Virus record (IMG/VR): IMGVR_UViG_3300009184_000235
Span: 1-22,544 of that record
DNA: 22,544 bases
Strand: one strand, 5' to 3'
Source of the DNA: a virus
Part shown: positions 7,717-22,544 of the stretch, one piece after another
How positions within the stretch are numbered: the first letter of the stretch is position 1
How the letters are laid out: each line of letters begins with the position of its first letter
Position numbers and translations under genes: made by a program
The notes under the pieces: model-generated
Databases searched by the model: none
Told to the model about the DNA's origin: nothing
What the model saw: the letters and a program-made list of their open reading frames with translations, nothing else

Positions 7717-8586
7717 CTATACAACTCTATTTCGACTAGCTAAATAATCGTTAAAATTCTTTTGATTTTGATACCCGCTTGCAAACGTATTAACACCACT
7801 TGCCAATGTGTTGTACATCCCCATCGTACCAGCGGCATTAGCATTACCCGCAGCCGTAATTGCATTGCCCGCTGCGGTGCCGTAATTGCCTAACGTGTTT
7901 GACGCGCCGGATGCGTAATTTGCCCCCGCTGCATTTAGTTCTCTGGTTGTAGTCTGCCCAACGCCAGCCATGCTGGCTAGACGGTTGTAGCCTGTATCGG
8001 CACGCGCTACATCAGCGCTATATCCCGTAAGCCCACGGCTAAACGCTGTATTTGACCTGTCTACTTGCGTGCCGTAACCAGTAAGGGCGCGCTGGTACGC
8101 ATTTTGGTATTCTTGCGAAGCTAAGTCCCCGCTATAACGAGACGCAGCTTTTAACGCAGTGCCAGAAATTAAACCTCCACGGGCGGCTGCGGATCGCTCA
8201 AGCGCTCTGGTCCCTTCTGACAACCGAAAAGCATACCCTGGGTCAGCTTGAAAATCATTTTTTCCAAAGCTAAACGCGTCTGGTTGGGCGTAACGTGGAT
8301 CGTTGACGTTAAATGCGGCGGGCGGGGTAAATTCACCAGCTTGCATTCTTGCCAAAGCATTGGTGCCGGCGGTAAGAAAAGGTTGCTGGCGTTCGACGCC
8401 TTCTTCGTATTGCCGTTTTTGCAACGCAAGTTGCCGGTCAGCAACATCACTTTGAATTGCTCCAGCTTCTCTAGCCGCACCGGCTTGTGTTTCAGCGGCC
8501 TCTTTCTGTCCTTTAGCGGCTAAAAGACCACCTCCTACGGTGGCACCCGCCAAAAGCCAAGTGCCTGCGCTTATTCCAAAAGTCAT
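7717..8586 (-). CDS. DNA transfer (ejection) protein, P22 gp7-like, 289 residues
   Basis: Residues 8-24 are a hydrophobic glycine/alanine segment, and about 26-68 a charged helix. At residues 116-163 stands the block PGYAFRLSEGTRALERSAAA followed by GGLISGTALKAASRY and ASQEYQNAY. I recognise this block from phage DNA-transfer proteins that occur with P22-like heads. Residues 168-203 show an imperfect internal duplication (LTGYGTQVDRSNTAFSR / LTGYSADVARADTGYNR), and 215-275 is rich in A, N and G. P22 gp7 is 229 residues and is ejected with the DNA. The ATG overlaps the stop of the cupin-like gene as ATGA. The first gene of the ejection block. Confidence 0.85.
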   Translation of the reverse strand: MTFGISAGTWLLAGATVGGGLLAAKGQKEAAETQAGAAREAGAIQSDVADRQLALQKRQYEEGVERQQPFLTAGTNALARMQAGEFTPPAAFNVNDPRYAQPDAFSFGKNDFQADPGYAFRLSEGTRALERSAAARGGLISGTALKAASRYSGDLASQEYQNAYQRALTGYGTQVDRSNTAFSRGLTGYSADVARADTGYNRLASMAGVGQTTTRELNAAGANYASGASNTLGNYGTAAGNAITAAGNANAAGTMGMYNTLASGVNTFASGYQNQKNFNDYLASRNRVV

Positions 8587-9074
8587 GGTGTGATCCTTTC
8601 AAGTTGCGCCATACTGTCAATAAGCCCCATCTCACTGTAGCTGGGCGCAATCAGTTCAGCTTCTATCTCATCCAAATATTCTTCGCCATTATGCTTGGTC
8701 ATGTGAACCGTCATCCAAATTGTGTCTTCTTCGGCTAAAACGGCGCGTTTTAAACCAACTTCAGATAAAAACCCGCATGGGGCTTCATACATCTTTTTAC
8801 CAAATTCAGTAGCTACAGACACTTTACCTTTGATGATAAAGTTTAAATGCTGGTGTCGGTGAATCTTACCTACAATCAAAGTTCCTTGCGGGATAAACAT
8901 TTGACGGCCATAAACGCTGCATCCGTAATCTTCACTTTTGGGCGAGAAATAATGCGTCAATGTGCAAGCAGGCAAACGATCTTCCATTTCGCCGTCTGCA
9001 ATTAGTTTTTGCATTTGCTCTTGCAAATTTAAAATATCCTCGCGGAATTTAACTTTTTCTACTAGATCGTTCAC
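8583..9074 (-). CDS. Cupin-like protein, 163 residues
   Basis: Starts with GTG overlapping the previous TGA (GTGA) behind a strong GGGAGG site. The core, about residues 50-125, has the cupin order of strands: IPQGTLIVGKIHRHQHLNFI with G64, H72, H74, H76 and then G83, followed by APCGFLSEVGLKRAVL where P99 and G101 fit the second cupin motif. The usual glutamate after HxH and the histidine of motif 2 are replaced (N78; R110 region), so a full metal-binding site is uncertain. Small cupin-like proteins of this kind recur in phages near structural genes with no firm function. Position is that of P22 gene 14, a head-completion gene, but I see no basis for homology. A structural role or a sugar/metal-dependent modification are both possible. 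Confidence 0.75.
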   Translation of the reverse strand: MNDLVEKVKFREDILNLQEQMQKLIADGEMEDRLPACTLTHYFSPKSEDYGCSVYGRQMFIPQGTLIVGKIHRHQHLNFIIKGKVSVATEFGKKMYEAPCGFLSEVGLKRAVLAEEDTIWMTVHMTKHNGEEYLDEIEAELIAPSYSEMGLIDSMAQLERITP

Positions 9075-16333: not shown

Positions 16334-16600
16334 CTATTCGAAAACAACTGTTGCGGTAACTGTACCCGAAATTACTACATAAATGCCGCTACCGCAATAA
16401 AGTCCGTCTAACGGAAATACATACGATGTCGCGGCGGCTGGCGTGAACACAGCCAACACCGTTTTGGTGGTGGTGGCCGCTGCCGAGTCATAAACAGTAA
16501 TAGTAGGCGTAGCCGACGCGCCGCTTACAAAGATACCTTTGAGTTTGCCCGCTGCTGGCTTGATGTTGGCCGTAGCAGAGATTGCGGTGTAATTTGCCAT
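16334..16600 (-). CDS. Small beta-structured phage protein, 88 residues
   Basis: Begins MANYTAISATANIKPAAGKL, then GIFVSGASATPTITVYDS, and ends GIYVVISGTVTATVVFE. Alternating strands and a GKLxGIFVSxASxTPTITVYD pattern fit a small beta sandwich that I recall as common in phage structural gene clusters, without an assigned function. A TAAGGA ribosome site is 6 bases before the ATG. It stands between the Dps-like gene and the scaffold gene; a decoration or minor head protein role is inferred only from that. A gap of 52 bases to the scaffold gene holds the leader hairpin. Confidence 0.75.
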   Translation of the reverse strand: MANYTAISATANIKPAAGKLKGIFVSGASATPTITVYDSAAATTTKTVLAVFTPAAATSYVFPLDGLYCGSGIYVVISGTVTATVVFE

Positions 16601-16609
16601 GATGTGTCC

Positions 16610-16972
16610 TTATGCCAAAAAGCGGAGTTTATACAGAGTACGCAAATAAATCTCAACAATATTGTCGATCAGTTGCTGCAACGTTGAGTCAGATTCATCA
16701 CAGATTTCGTAACGGCCTTTTTCAATTTCATCAAGCTGGCCCTGCAAAAACTCAATGATGTTTGTGGTCTTTTTGGCCGCTGGAATAGCAATCGGGCCAA
16801 TTAAACCATGACGGCCTTGGTAGGCTTCGGCAAAATCGTCCGCTGCTCCAATAATGCGCTCGTAAAAGATATTAAGCGCAACGTGCTTGGAATAGCTGCG
16901 TGTGTTCAAGTGAACACTGTGCGCCACATTGCGGCCCAAGAACAGTAGCCCCATTAATTGTGCGGCGGTCAT
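16610..16972 (-). CDS. Dps/ferritin-like small helical protein, 120 residues
   Basis: Almost entirely helical. Residues 15-53 carry VAHSVHLNTRSYSKHVALNI, then FYERIIGAADDFAEAYQG. Aligned on H30, the tyrosine at +7, aspartate at +15 (D45) and glutamate at +19 (E49) fall at the same spacing as in Dps ferroxidase segments; H18 or H21 could supply the first histidine. The aspartate at +4 in Dps is asparagine here (N34). At 120 residues it is shorter than Dps (about 150-170) and lacks an extended N-terminus. I recall a phage family of unknown function with this HLxTxSYxxHxAL pattern. Its ATG overlaps the portal stop (ATGA), so it is made with head proteins. It may bind iron, DNA, or be a structural four-helix protein without ferroxidase activity. 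Confidence 0.7.
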   Translation of the reverse strand: MTAAQLMGLLFLGRNVAHSVHLNTRSYSKHVALNIFYERIIGAADDFAEAYQGRHGLIGPIAIPAAKKTTNIIEFLQGQLDEIEKGRYEICDESDSTLQQLIDNIVEIYLRTLYKLRFLA

Positions 16973-19158
16973 TGTGGCTGCTCCATTGGTGGCATAGGCT
17001 GTGGCATTTCAGGCATACCTTCCATGCCCACGTCCATCTGTTGTTCGGGCATCTCAGGAATGCCGCCAATCTGGCCGTTAGACTCCATTGCAGCGGCTAC
17101 CACGCCCATAGCAATATCTTGAATTTGTTGCTCATTCATACCAGCTTGTGTGGCCGTAATGCGCTGAGTCTCGGCTTGGTACGCTTTAATCTCAGCCTCG
17201 TAATCCTTGCGGCGCTGCTCCTGCATTTCAATGGACTTGCCGACGTTTTGGATCATCTGGTGCATCTGCTCCATCTCTTGACCCATTGCTTGCATCTGTT
17301 GCTGTGCGGCTTGCAATTCTGGATTGTCTTCACCATCGCTCATCAGTTTAGGGTCGATGGTCTTGGCAAAACGCTTTGCCATCTCTTGGGCACCAGGCCA
17401 ATCCATGTTTTTCACAAACAGATCACCGGCAACAGACCATAGCTGCGGGTTGCCCTGCAACAGTTGGCCCATCGCCTCCAGCGCTTCTTGGCGCTTGGTC
17501 GCGTAACCTGGGCCGGTGGTTGCCACCACGTCGTACTTGCCCACGCCGGGGTTGTAAATCTTGTCGATCACAATTCCATTCTGGTCCATGATCTTCTTGA
17601 CCGGCTCTTGCTGCATTGGGTCAATCTTGACCATGCTGGTCTCGCCGTCCTCGCCAATAATGCGAGCAATACGCTGGGTGTCGTAGATTTTGGGGATTAG
17701 GTCAATCAATTGGCGGGTCAGATACCGCACGCCACGGGCCAAGTTGTCGCCAAAGTGGTAAGTCCCAACATCACCCTCACGCTGACGCGCAAGAATTGCT
17801 TTTCCTGAGCGTTCGTTGGATGTCATGCCCAAAGATGCGTTATATTGGCCGGTGGACGCTTTAATATCTTCAGACGCCCCTGCTTTAGCCTGTAGCAGCC
17901 CGCTGGAGGCCATTGGCGGCTGCGCCCGCTGTGGTAGTGGCAGCGTAGCGCCCGCGCCGTCTGTAACGTCAGGATTAACCTCTAAATACGGCCAGTTAGT
18001 CGTGTTAGCGGTCTTCCACTGGTTTTCGTAACCTTCAAACTGGCCGCCATAGCCAATAAACGGTGCTTTGGGTGCCAAAGCCAGCATCTCTGCCTCTTGG
18101 GACACCCAGTAGTTGTACATCCGCTGCGCGTCTTTAGCGTTTCTAACCAACCCAGACACATACAAACGGCCATCAACCTCAAATTCATTGCCAACAATGC
18201 GGACAATCGGGATATATTGCCCTGCCCAATCGCGTTCTTCCAAGATTTCGTAGCCGTTTATCTTGCAATACTTGATCTTGGCGCGGTCAGACTGCCTAGA
18301 CTTCTTGGGTTTACCGTAAATAGCGCGTAATTGCTTGTCTTCGGGCGTTCCATCAAAAGCTGTGACGTTGCCAGGATACAAATTGAGCGTGTCGCTGTCG
18401 TAATCAACGTAGTAGTAGTCCGCAATGCGAATAGTGTCCTCATTGAGCCACTGCGACAAGTTTTGGTCGCCTACTCCAAGCGTTTGCAGCGTAGTAATAG
18501 GCGCAGAATTAGGGTACTTGCGCTCATACTCGGCTTTGGGGATGTCCTCGGTCACAAAGCACCACTTGGCGTCTTGGCCGCAGGGGTCTTGGATGGTTGG
18601 ATCCATGTAAACCGAGAAACTATTACGAACTCGGCCTATTTTGATGTCCTGGTCAAAGGTATTGTCGTCGCAATACTCGGTCAGGAGCCGGAAGTAGCCT
18701 TCTCCGTAGGAGACTTGGTTTTCGCAGGCGGTGTCGTAAGCGACATCTGCGTCCGAGATATATTCAATATGTCTGACCATGCCGTTGAAGACTTCGGCAA
18801 CGTCAATATCGGCCTTGTCGTCGGCTGGAATAACTTTGCCTGTTGGGCGGTTTTGTCGTTGGTCATTGGTTACTTGCCGGACGTGCTGCGGCAGTTTATT
18901 AATCGTTAAACAAGGGCGCGCGTTGATTGTCTGCCCTTGCACCGCGCCACGGGTCGCCAGCACATCAGCAGGCCATTGCCAGTGATTGTCGGGCGAGCCA
19001 GCATAAAACTTCAGATCGTCAATCTCATCCTCGCGGGATTCGGACAACGCCGCAATTGCCATGTCCAAGCGGCTGCGGGCAGTTGCCAGCACATCTGAAT
19101 CGCTGCCACCAACATTGGCGACATTGCCTACCGCTACCATGCCGGTGTAATCAGCCAT
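16969..19158 (-). CDS. Portal protein, P22 gp1 type, 729 residues
   Basis: Family-typical segments run through the first 500 residues: DDLKFYAGSPDNHWQWPADV, PCLTINKLPQHVRQVTNDQR, the following QNRPTGKVIPAD, YDTACENQVSYGEGYFRLLT and SFSVYMDPTIQDPCGQDAKW. Later come YNYWVSQEAEMLALAPKAPF and ASLGMTSNERSGKAILARQR. Length matches P22 portal (725 residues). Residues from about 600 form a long Q/E/M-rich helix fitting the C-terminal barrel helix of P22 portal, and the last about 35 are Met/Pro/Gln-rich. The dodecameric ring is the DNA channel and terminase docking site. The ATG overlaps the preceding stop (TAATG) with an AGG ribosome site. Confidence 0.95.
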   Translation of the reverse strand: MADYTGMVAVGNVANVGGSDSDVLATARSRLDMAIAALSESREDEIDDLKFYAGSPDNHWQWPADVLATRGAVQGQTINARPCLTINKLPQHVRQVTNDQRQNRPTGKVIPADDKADIDVAEVFNGMVRHIEYISDADVAYDTACENQVSYGEGYFRLLTEYCDDNTFDQDIKIGRVRNSFSVYMDPTIQDPCGQDAKWCFVTEDIPKAEYERKYPNSAPITTLQTLGVGDQNLSQWLNEDTIRIADYYYVDYDSDTLNLYPGNVTAFDGTPEDKQLRAIYGKPKKSRQSDRAKIKYCKINGYEILEERDWAGQYIPIVRIVGNEFEVDGRLYVSGLVRNAKDAQRMYNYWVSQEAEMLALAPKAPFIGYGGQFEGYENQWKTANTTNWPYLEVNPDVTDGAGATLPLPQRAQPPMASSGLLQAKAGASEDIKASTGQYNASLGMTSNERSGKAILARQREGDVGTYHFGDNLARGVRYLTRQLIDLIPKIYDTQRIARIIGEDGETSMVKIDPMQQEPVKKIMDQNGIVIDKIYNPGVGKYDVVATTGPGYATKRQEALEAMGQLLQGNPQLWSVAGDLFVKNMDWPGAQEMAKRFAKTIDPKLMSDGEDNPELQAAQQQMQAMGQEMEQMHQMIQNVGKSIEMQEQRRKDYEAEIKAYQAETQRITATQAGMNEQQIQDIAMGVVAAAMESNGQIGGIPEMPEQQMDVGMEGMPEMPQPMPPMEQPQ

Positions 19159-19875: not shown

Positions 19876-20124
19876 TTAACACTTCCATCTTGCTAAAGCA
19901 GCAGCTTTGCGGGTGGGATTACCCTTTTCATCTTTCATTGGCCCAGGCACGCCAGACATACGGGCGCAGAACGAATCCTTGCGTGCGCCGCCTTGGGGTT
20001 GCGGAGCTTTTAAATTAGAGCCGGTTGCCGCGTTGTACTTCTCGCGCCCTTTGGCCGTCAAGCCAGCGCCTTGGGATGTAGGCAGTTTCTCGCCGCGTCC
20101 AACAGATAGAGATACTTTTTTCAT
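19876..20124 (-). CDS. Small conserved-type basic phage protein, 82 residues
   Basis: Contains the run LTAKGREKYNAATGSNLKAP, then PQGGARKDSFCARMSGVPGP and KGNPTRKAAALARWKC. I recognise this block (AGLTAKGRxKYN...SFCARMSG...RKAAALARWxC) as a frequent small protein in diverse phages, of unknown function, usually near the terminase or portal. I chose ATG at 20124, which overlaps the large-terminase TGA as ATGA and has a GGATGGG site; an in-frame ATG at 20136 would add four residues but has a poor site. Two cysteines (in SFCARM and at the C-terminus) are conserved in what I recall of the family. The protein is strongly basic and could bind DNA or RNA. Confidence 0.85.
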   Translation of the reverse strand: MKKVSLSVGRGEKLPTSQGAGLTAKGREKYNAATGSNLKAPQPQGGARKDSFCARMSGVPGPMKDEKGNPTRKAAALARWKC

Positions 20125-21644
20125 GAACCCATCCATGAAGTGTGCATTGCGCCGTCTTGAGCGTTATAGCGGCGAGTTGGCTCAGTATACTCGCGGTGAG
20201 CCACAGGAAAAGCAAACGTCACGCATATTGCGTCCGCTGCGTCTGGCGATGCAAGTCCCCGCGCTTTCATTTCTTTCTTGCTCTCCAAGAAGATTGTTCC
20301 ACGTGAATCAGGCTTCATCTTAGGCGAAATTAAATCCGTCTTCAAGAACCTGTCGGTCGGGATACTAGCAGATTTCAGCCATTCCCTCATCTCGCCCCAC
20401 ATCTGGGCGCGCATATTTCCGTACATTATCGGGTTTTTAGCCTTATTTCCAAAGTTTACACCCTTGATCTTGTACCGCTGCTCCTTGAGCCGGTCCACAA
20501 TCCCAGCCCCCAGCCCACCCTCGTCGATCACCACCAGCGCCGGTTTGTACTCCTCAATGGCGTCGATCACATACCCCACCACCGTCATCGTGTCATCCCC
20601 ACGGTGGCGCGTGATGTTAACAATATCCCTGCCTTGGCGCACCGCGATGACCGTGGCGTCCGCGCCGTAGCGCGCCGGATCGACTCCAATGATGATGGGC
20701 GCGGACAAGTCCTTGTACTTCTCCCGCCCCATTGCCTCATCCACGATGTCAGACCCAATGAACTGATCGTCGCCCGCGCTGGGGAACATACCGTAGACCT
20801 CGACGTGCGATTGGCTGGAGTCTGGCCCGTACTCTTGGATGATCCGCTCATAGACCTGTTTGTCCGTACCCTCTACCGTGCGCGCGTCCACCACCTTGGT
20901 TTTCCAAAACGCCCGCTTGGAGTTGAACGCTTCGTAGAAGTACCCCGTGTTGCGCCGTGGGTTGGAGAACGCTAGCCAGAACCTGTTGGGTGTGTTCTCC
21001 GTGAAAAAGCCCGCAGTCACCGCCCAGATCGCGTCGTCGATACCTGACGCCTCATCGAACACTACCAGCACCCCGTCGTAGTTATGCACACCCGCGTAGG
21101 CGTCGGGATTCTCCGCTGACCACAGCCGCCCTTCGACGCCCCAGTACCTGGTGCCCTTCTTCAAGTCCCGCTCGACCAGTTCAGTCAGCCACTTGGCGGG
21201 CATCAGCCGCGTGGCGCTGACCTCAAACCAGTGCGAGTTGATCGCCATTGCCAGCCACTTGGTAATCTCGGCCCAGGTGATTGATCTGAGCTGGCTCTCC
21301 GAGTTGGCCGAGATGATGGTCGTCGAGCCTATGCGCGTTGCCAGCATCCAGATTGTGATCCAACTGACCAAGGCCGACTTGCCAATACCGCGTCCAGACG
21401 AGATGGCGCTTTGCAATACTGCGTAATCTAGCTGGCCTTTGTTTGCTTCGATGTGCTCGGCGATGTCTTGCAGCACCTCGCGCTGCCACTTGCGTGGTCC
21501 CTTGAAGTTCTCCAGCGGCGTGCCCTTGACGCCCCACGGAAATACAAGCGCTACAAAGTTCAGCGGGTTGTCCTTGATACGCGGCGTCCACAGACGCGCC
21601 ATCAGGGCTTGTTCGTCTTCAGCGCTGTATTTGGTGGACTGCAT
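20121..21644 (-). CDS. terL: Terminase large subunit, 507 residues
   Basis: ATP-driven packaging motor with a nuclease domain. Walker A is SSGRGIGKSA (residues 82-91), and Walker B is GVLVVFDEAS (191-200) with D197 and catalytic E198. A coupling-motif-like FSNPRR is at 226-231. The RNase H-like nuclease begins at IIIGVDPARYGADATVIAVR (317-336) with D322; the second acidic strand is LVVIDEGG (370-377) with D374; the third is ASPDAADAIC (465-474) with D468 or D471. All expected acidic residues are present, and the length matches P22 gp2 (499). The ATG lies 2 bases after the HNH stop, and no good ribosome site is seen, so it probably depends on ribosomes finishing the HNH gene. The 3' end overlaps the next gene (ATGA). 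Confidence 0.95.
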   Translation of the reverse strand: MQSTKYSAEDEQALMARLWTPRIKDNPLNFVALVFPWGVKGTPLENFKGPRKWQREVLQDIAEHIEANKGQLDYAVLQSAISSGRGIGKSALVSWITIWMLATRIGSTTIISANSESQLRSITWAEITKWLAMAINSHWFEVSATRLMPAKWLTELVERDLKKGTRYWGVEGRLWSAENPDAYAGVHNYDGVLVVFDEASGIDDAIWAVTAGFFTENTPNRFWLAFSNPRRNTGYFYEAFNSKRAFWKTKVVDARTVEGTDKQVYERIIQEYGPDSSQSHVEVYGMFPSAGDDQFIGSDIVDEAMGREKYKDLSAPIIIGVDPARYGADATVIAVRQGRDIVNITRHRGDDTMTVVGYVIDAIEEYKPALVVIDEGGLGAGIVDRLKEQRYKIKGVNFGNKAKNPIMYGNMRAQMWGEMREWLKSASIPTDRFLKTDLISPKMKPDSRGTIFLESKKEMKARGLASPDAADAICVTFAFPVAHREYTEPTRRYNAQDGAMHTSWMGS

Positions 21645-21646
21645 AT

Positions 21647-22138
21647 TTATGGCCGATGTGGGTGATACAGAATTTCAGCTTGTTGTCGTGCTGCAACCGC
21701 GTCGTCTAGGTTTTGAAACAAGCCAAGATTCGTGGATTTCCCGTTTACTTCAATGTGCGCTTGCCAGCGTTTATCGCGTTTGTGCCATGTTACACCCAAA
21801 TACCCCGACGCGCTTTTGGTTTTGCGCGCGCGGTTTTGATGATTTTGAGCGCATGAAACATCGCGCAAATTAATTATTCTATTGTCAGATTTAATGTGAT
21901 TGATATGATCTATTTGCCCAGTAGGCCAAACACCATGCACATATAGCCACACCAACCTGTGCACAAGGTGCAGTTTGTTGTCTATGCTGCGCTGTAAATA
22001 CCCCCCAGTGCATAAAGAGCCTACAAGATTTCCAGCGGGTTGATTTTTAATCTTTACTTTGCGTGTTAATTGCCCCGTGATTGGGCTGTAATCGAACAGA
22101 AAGTGCAGGCGCGCTTGCGTTAGAATTTGTGTAGTCAT
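21647..22138 (-). CDS. HNH homing-type endonuclease with C-terminal AP2 domain, 163 residues
   Basis: An N-terminal segment (LHFLFDYSPITGQLTRKVKI) leads into the HNH core: H60 in LVHRLVWLYVHG, D78-H79 in GQIDHINHIKSDNRIINLRD, then N99 and N102 in AQNHQNRARK. This is the pattern of short phage HNH enzymes. Residues about 111-155 (SGYLGVTWHKRDKRWQAHIE, then VNGKSTNLGLFQNLDDAVAA) form an AP2 DNA-binding domain. Such genes are free-standing mobile elements that nick a target and spread into phages lacking them; some are proposed to help terminase cutting. The start at 22138 lies 92 bases inside the small-terminase frame with its own AAGGA site. The gene is noticeably more A/T-rich than the large terminase, consistent with later arrival. 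Confidence 0.92.
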   Translation of the reverse strand: MTTQILTQARLHFLFDYSPITGQLTRKVKIKNQPAGNLVGSLCTGGYLQRSIDNKLHLVHRLVWLYVHGVWPTGQIDHINHIKSDNRIINLRDVSCAQNHQNRARKTKSASGYLGVTWHKRDKRWQAHIEVNGKSTNLGLFQNLDDAVAARQQAEILYHPHRP

Positions 22139-22544
22139 TGCCGTCCTTATTACGGTTATTGATTAGAAATCCTGCATCGTTTGCGCGATGTGGGGTTTCG
22201 TCTATTGTAACCTCAATGACGCGCATCTCTGCTTCTTGCAGCGCCTGCGTGATGGATATGCGCTGGTCGATGTCCACCGTGATGGACTGCTTGGCAACCC
22301 AACCGTGTTGGTGCTTCAAGATTTCAAGCGCCGCCTTGGCGTCGCCTTCTCTGGCTGCTTTGTGCAGGATGTCGGCCATCTCGCGTTCGCCGTCAGCCTT
22401 GCCTTTGCGCGCGGCCATCTCGGCCAGCGCGTCAAATTGGCACAAGTGCTGGTACTCCTCTGGCCGCAGCCCTGACGCCAGAGCCAACGTGTCGCCCTTG
22501 AGTCCTAGCTTGGCAGCGTCGTATATCGCCTGCAAGCGCGATTC
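22047..22544 (-). CDS. Putative terminase small subunit, 5' end cut by window edge
   Basis: The frame is open to the right edge (165 codons visible); an in-frame TTG at 22535 is unlikely to be the true start. The segment EMADILHKAAREGDAKAALE, then ILKHQHGWVAKQSITVDIDQ and ISITQALQEAEMRVIEV, resembles the middle and C-terminal part of small terminases that bind the packaging site and hand DNA to the large subunit. Upstream residues (LKGDTLALASGLRPEEYQHL) look like a helix-turn-helix region. The last about 30 residues (from NDYTNSNA onward) overlap the HNH gene in another frame and are of low complexity. Synteny with the large terminase supports the call. Confidence 0.75.
   Translation of the reverse strand, partial: ESRLQAIYDAAKLGLKGDTLALASGLRPEEYQHLCQFDALAEMAARKGKADGEREMADILHKAAREGDAKAALEILKHQHGWVAKQSITVDIDQRISITQALQEAEMRVIEVTIDETPHRANDAGFLINNRNKDGNDYTNSNASAPALSVRLQPNHGAINTQSKD
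22144..22148 (-). promoter_or_regulatory. Internal ribosome binding site of the HNH gene
   Basis: Minus strand AAGGA followed by CGGCA and ATG, 5-base spacing, located inside the small-terminase reading frame. It decides the HNH start at 22138 over later starts and shows that the overlap of the two genes is functional. Confidence 0.75.

Follow-up and report, generated by a model that had tools for sequence, protein, structure and literature searches.

A phage gene adjoining a P22-type portal gene probably encodes a minimal Dps-like protein of the DUF5856/T4 RI.-1 family

The window, a 22,544-nucleotide stretch of viral DNA, contains a minus-strand gene (16610–16972) for a 120-residue protein. 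Taken as a whole, this gene is best explained as coding for a ferritin-superfamily protein of minimal, Dps-like form that belongs to the DUF5856/T4 RI.-1 family, a reading that we consider probable with moderate confidence. The open reading frame is present with the coordinates and length given in the original prediction, and the likeness to Dps and ferritins proposed there is supported by fold match, profile homology, and invariant ligand residues.

More than 1,200 phage records, those of T4 relatives among them, contain matches to the family, yet its members go under the names DUF5856 or transcriptional regulator. Parts of the present assignment had been made before: the label given in PHROG points toward Dps, the member in Munch is annotated as "ferritin-like", and Sajous1 gp217 has been called a ferritin (PMC10892097). 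The present analysis adds that the ligand set is invariant, tests homology to Dps against controls, assigns RI.-1, and brings three separate virion detections together in one family. An invariant Dps-type metal site would give the family a testable chemistry and would tie rI.-1, a long-known T4 gene whose role is unclear, to the ferritins; it also prompts one to ask why a tailed phage should produce, and perhaps package, a protein that handles iron.

By sequence, the 120-residue protein is a member of the DUF5856 family. It matches Pfam DUF5856 (PF19174) over positions 1–94 of 94 (E 1.5e-18; 68.1 bits against a curated cut-off of 34.6), as well as phrog_858, labeled "starvation-inducible transcriptional regulator" (E 2.4e-21). 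Homologs were found by tblastn in 1,269 phage records, mostly of T4-like and Vi01-like myophages, with at least 80% of the protein covered in 1,268 of them. The set used for comparison comprises 368 loci and 248 distinct homologs, which reduce to 57 representatives at less than 80% identity and to 27 at less than 60%; the DUF5856 profile is matched by all 72 members of the alignment from which our own profile was built. T4-type RI.-1 (also known as MobD.6) belongs to the family, as seen in RB49, RB5, and Klebsiella phage ValerieMcCarty03 (VMC03), and the RB5 and ValerieMcCarty03 members score far above the Pfam cut-off. The window protein is like the DUF5856, phrog_858, and T4 RI.-1 proteins in its full-length match, invariant residues, and predicted fold, but its gene lies behind a P22-type portal gene, whereas the T4-type members lie behind rI.

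The original prediction depended on a four-helix fold, and the AlphaFold2 model (mean pLDDT 95.5) is indeed a four-helix bundle matching Dps, with helices at residues 3–23, 27–55, 72–90, and 96–118. The top 19 Foldseek matches in the PDB are all Dps proteins (probability 0.98–1.00), with weak E-values, the best being 0.017. VIA-align gives Z 14.2 and an rmsd of 2.4 Å over 119 residues for MsDps2, and Z 13.1 for E. coli Dps; because helical bundles can reach Z scores of about 13–14 through their common arrangement, structure alone is not decisive, but together with the profile and ligand evidence it is. The model of one T4-type RI.-1 is a ferritin-superfamily bundle as well, with Dps and YciE/YciF among its best matches.

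Homology to Dps is detected at the level of profiles. With the single sequence, a search of PDB sequences returned nothing useful, and Pfam Ferritin (PF00210) gave no match for the 120-residue protein and matched 2 of the 72 alignment members at E about 0.05. NCBIfam matches were weak and scattered, with Dps found for 3 of the 72 (best E 0.033). When the 72-member profile was searched against all PDB sequences with hmmsearch, the first seven matches were all Dps-family proteins, among them HP-NAP (E 0.0012), and the alignment to HP-NAP brings the four ligands into register with one 3-residue gap in the A-B loop. When the profile was compared by hhalign with one of 28 bacterial Dps proteins, the probability was 93.8 and the score 48.2 over 110 columns, against 0.5 and 15.0 for the reversed Dps profile and at most 3.8 and 20.3 for 20 column shuffles.

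The ligands of Dps, which we take to be H51, H63, D67, D78, and E82 in E. coli numbering (−12, 0, +4, +15, and +19), have four equivalents in the window protein according to the profile alignments, all encoded on the minus strand. These are H21 (codon 16910–16912; E. coli Dps H51, HP-NAP H25), H30 (16883–16885; H63, H37), D45 (16838–16840; D78, D52), and E49 (16826–16828; E82, E56). Each is kept in 248 of 248 homologs, and together they make up four of only six invariant columns in the alignment (A1). The original prediction, which placed H18, H21, H30, N34, Y37, D45, and E49 correctly, hinged on H30, D45, and E49 not varying freely among homologs, and none of them varies at all. Two further residues are nearly invariant: an extra histidine, H18 (codon 16919–16921, minus strand; 243/248), and Y37 (247/248). 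The distances H30–D45 (15) and D45–E49 (4) do not vary among the 57 representatives below 80% identity, while H21–H30 is 9 in 53 of them, 12 in three, and 13 in one; RB49 and other members with a longer loop have the Dps value of 12. The choice between H18 and H21 as the first Dps histidine, left open originally, falls to H21 and not H18, because H21 is invariant, aligns by profile with HP-NAP H25 and E. coli-type H51, and stands at a distance of 12 where the loop is longer. As originally stated, the Dps aspartate at +4 is replaced by N34: the acidic residue at this position (E. coli D67) is absent from the 120-residue protein and rare among the 248 homologs, which mostly have G, Q, or N there. 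Even in a single sequence the motif is improbable, arising by chance in 113 of 200,000 shuffles of the protein and occurring in 11 of 14,812 six-frame ORFs of the collected loci, but it is the conservation among homologs that decides the matter. With fold, profile, and ligands taken together, we regard a Dps-like fold and homology to Dps as nearly certain.

In comparison with the Dps family (E. coli Dps, HP-NAP, MrgA, and MsDps2), the protein has in common the four-helix fold, the equivalents of H51, H63, D78, and E82 with Dps spacing for the last three, and the confinement of the ligands to helices A and B. It differs in having 120 residues against about 145–170 (some 35 fewer), an A-B loop that is 3 residues shorter in most family members, and the extra H18, and in lacking the +4 acid, the short BC helix (the AlphaFold2 model has no helix at residues 55–72), and a basic tail. 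Because the +4 acid, BC helix, basic tail, and about 35 residues are missing, we class it as a Dps-like variant rather than as Dps, although the protein most likely works like Dps. A basic tail is not universal among Dps proteins; here helix A starts at residue 3 of the model, the pI is 6.0, and the family median is 5.7. DNA binding through such a tail is rejected because of charge and length, and an acidic, tailless protein is unlikely to bind DNA in the manner of E. coli Dps. DNA protection, if any, would thus proceed by removal of iron and peroxide and not by coating of the DNA.

H30 and D45/E49 lie on one helix (27–55) of the AlphaFold2 model, 15–19 residues and hence, at 1.5 Å per residue, about 22–28 Å apart. 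With this separation one metal could be bound only across an antiparallel dimer, as in Dps. Judging from the helix geometry of the monomer model, antiparallel pairing would bring H21 and H30 of one chain to D45 and E49 of the other. H18, which precedes H21 by one turn, is a candidate stand-in for the missing +4 acid. We predict a metal site in the protein with high confidence, and the bound metal would most likely be iron. The protein may then oxidize Fe(II) and consume peroxide, which would lessen Fenton damage around the phage DNA; this putative iron/peroxide chemistry we judge to be evenly poised. The inactivated ferritin-like fold that the original prediction offered as an option is disfavored because the ligands are invariant. 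Alternatively, the four-helix protein could have a structural role without redox chemistry, its conserved residues binding zinc or only stabilizing a dimer. The missing +4 acid and the short chain would fit such a role, as would the HxxH pair formed by H18 and H21, HxxH being a common zinc-binding pattern. However, the exact Dps set and spacing are kept in 248 of 248 homologs, and two acids with two histidines across a dimer are the iron/manganese arrangement of Dps, so we consider a zinc or purely structural role unlikely.

The gene directly upstream encodes a P22-type portal protein (16969–19158, minus strand; PF16510 E 4.5e-175, phrog_156 E 5.7e-132), and its stop overlaps the start of the DUF5856 gene by four nucleotides (ATGA, 16969–16972, minus strand). 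The same overlap is found in 63 of 82 loci of the window clade, the start lies a few nucleotides from the portal stop in 17 others, and the remaining two lie at contig edges; the gene order is the same in two complete phage genomes. The gene had been described as translationally coupled to that of the portal. The overlap is there, but it does not establish strict coupling, since the DUF5856 gene has its own SD-like GGAG (16981–16984, minus strand) 8 nt before the ATG; as gene overlaps are also common in this genome, the portal overlap is weak evidence by itself. The next gene downstream (16334–16600, minus strand) encodes 88 residues with no Pfam match and weak PHROG matches, and it lies between the DUF5856 gene and the scaffold and coat genes.

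Other genes of the window include one at 7717–8586 matching phrog_598 (DNA ejection; E 8.5e-32), a P22-type ejection protein, and one at 8583–9074 whose cupin-like product has an HxH pattern and matches phrog_12032 (short tail fiber; E 3.2e-32). Three small genes at 436–1545, some with likely transmembrane segments, are possibly lysis genes, and one of them has a weak holin match (E 0.092). An HNH-type ORF recognized by eye (21647–22138) lies between the likely small (22047–22535) and large (20121–21644) terminase genes and overlaps the small one.

Published proteomes of purified virions from three phage lineages include relatives roughly 28–36% identical to the window protein. LIMEstone1 ORF078, a family member by its PF19174 match (E 8.8e-29), is listed as an "unknown structural protein" and was a "confirmed structural protein" by virion mass spectrometry, with 3 unique peptides and 28% coverage (PMC3296691). 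Sajous1 gp217, called ferritin by Phyre2, gave 10 spectra (PMC10892097), and gp108 and gp100 of ValerieMcCarty03 and ValerieMcCarty04 gave 26 and 27, above their authors' virion cut-off of 15 (PMC13119998). Counts for Sajous1 and LIMEstone1 are low, one Utah university group is apparently behind two of the three studies, and contamination is possible in that a protein cage could co-purify. The papers on CBA120 and EspM4VN do not mention the family protein. Sajous1 and LIMEstone1 belong to the Ackermannviridae, where the neighbors of the gene are a DNA primase gene and other virion genes instead of the portal gene. On our analysis, the suggestion in the original prediction that this is a virion protein gains support from these three relatives. 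The window protein would be made alongside the head proteins and may be carried inside or on the surface of the particle, as its relatives seem to be; that it is a virion component in this phage is putative, and we give it even weight for and against.

On the basis of gp217, it has been put forward for Sajous1 that such a virion protein carries iron for entry via host iron-uptake systems, the "Ferrojan horse" (PMC10892097). The same authors found that TonB- and FeoB-deficient Salmonella were infected equally well by Sajous1 (PMC10892097), and the portal-linked context in the window clade points to the head and not to tail fibers, which leaves this route of entry highly improbable here. Extending our preferred reading to the whole DUF5856 family, including T4 RI.-1, its members would be miniature ferritins carried by the virion, with H18 taking the place of the missing aspartate in a rearranged metal site, and would handle iron or peroxide around packaged DNA, a generalization that we offer only tentatively and regard as doubtful.

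A Dps-like protein could instead act solely in the infected cell, as a stress enzyme removing Fe(II) and peroxide, with its adjacency to the portal gene being incidental. Other phage groups carry true Dps and Mn-catalase, which are taken as oxidative-stress aids (PMC8008677; PMC6669764). Those of the gut Gratiaviridae, like the window protein, are phage-encoded members of the ferritin superfamily (PMC8008677), but they belong to the Dps and catalase families proper according to their authors and are set apart from the 120-residue protein by that description. The variable gene neighborhoods of the DUF5856 family agree with a role confined to the cell, as do laboratory sublines of T4 in which rI.-1 is frameshifted (PMC8573959) and must be dispensable. 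A cell-only enzyme would nevertheless leave unexplained both the virion detections in three phages and the conserved portal overlap in the window clade, and we consider it somewhat unlikely.

Across the family, neighboring genes are varied (HNH, terminase, tail fiber, RusA, and rI) and not always structural, and the neighbor tallies revealed no single conserved gene partner. As members also occur far from head genes, the portal neighborhood is particular to the window clade. Genes for a GroES co-chaperonin lie near the DUF5856 gene in two different phages (L084, 3561–3809; L279, 5907–6098). The main functional rival to a Dps-like virion protein comes from the link of T4 RI.-1 to lysis inhibition: the protein may be an infection-stage accessory and not a part of the virion, tuning lysis inhibition or cell state, like T4 RI.-1, by means of a Dps-like dimer that senses metal or redox state. 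In favor of this, T4-type RI.-1 (RB49, RB5, and VMC03) is a family member whose gene overlaps that of the antiholin, rI; lysis inhibition in T4 lasts slightly longer when rI.-1 is over-expressed (Golec 2010, via review PMC6832632); and some members adjoin endolysin, lysozyme, or holin-like genes. However, a link to the lysis cassette through neighboring rI, endolysin, and lysozyme genes did not hold across the family, for which the tallies give no general association with lysis genes, and the partner in the window clade is the portal gene. In addition, RaK2 has a homolog but neither T holin nor RI antiholin (PMC3622015), and a lysis-inhibition role also runs against the virion detections in three lineages. 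On balance we hold it to be improbable. The "holin" beside the member in P19250A looks HNH-type in related loci.

The DUF5856 family is viral. Of 299 proteobacterial genomes, 2 have it, one having been chosen as the center for that reason, while Dps was found in 28 of 80. A scan of bacterial genomes with the single protein gave matches only in contigs binned in MAGs; these contigs (L371–L376), assigned to Rhodoferax, other Burkholderiales, and Methylococcaceae, carry homologs 69–98% identical to the window protein and hint at proteobacterial hosts. Predicted proteins of Pithovirus and Fadolivirus (BFVD A0A481ZC29 and A0A7D3V608) match the model of the window protein (probability 1.00), and giant viruses of eukaryotes may therefore have proteins of this kind too.
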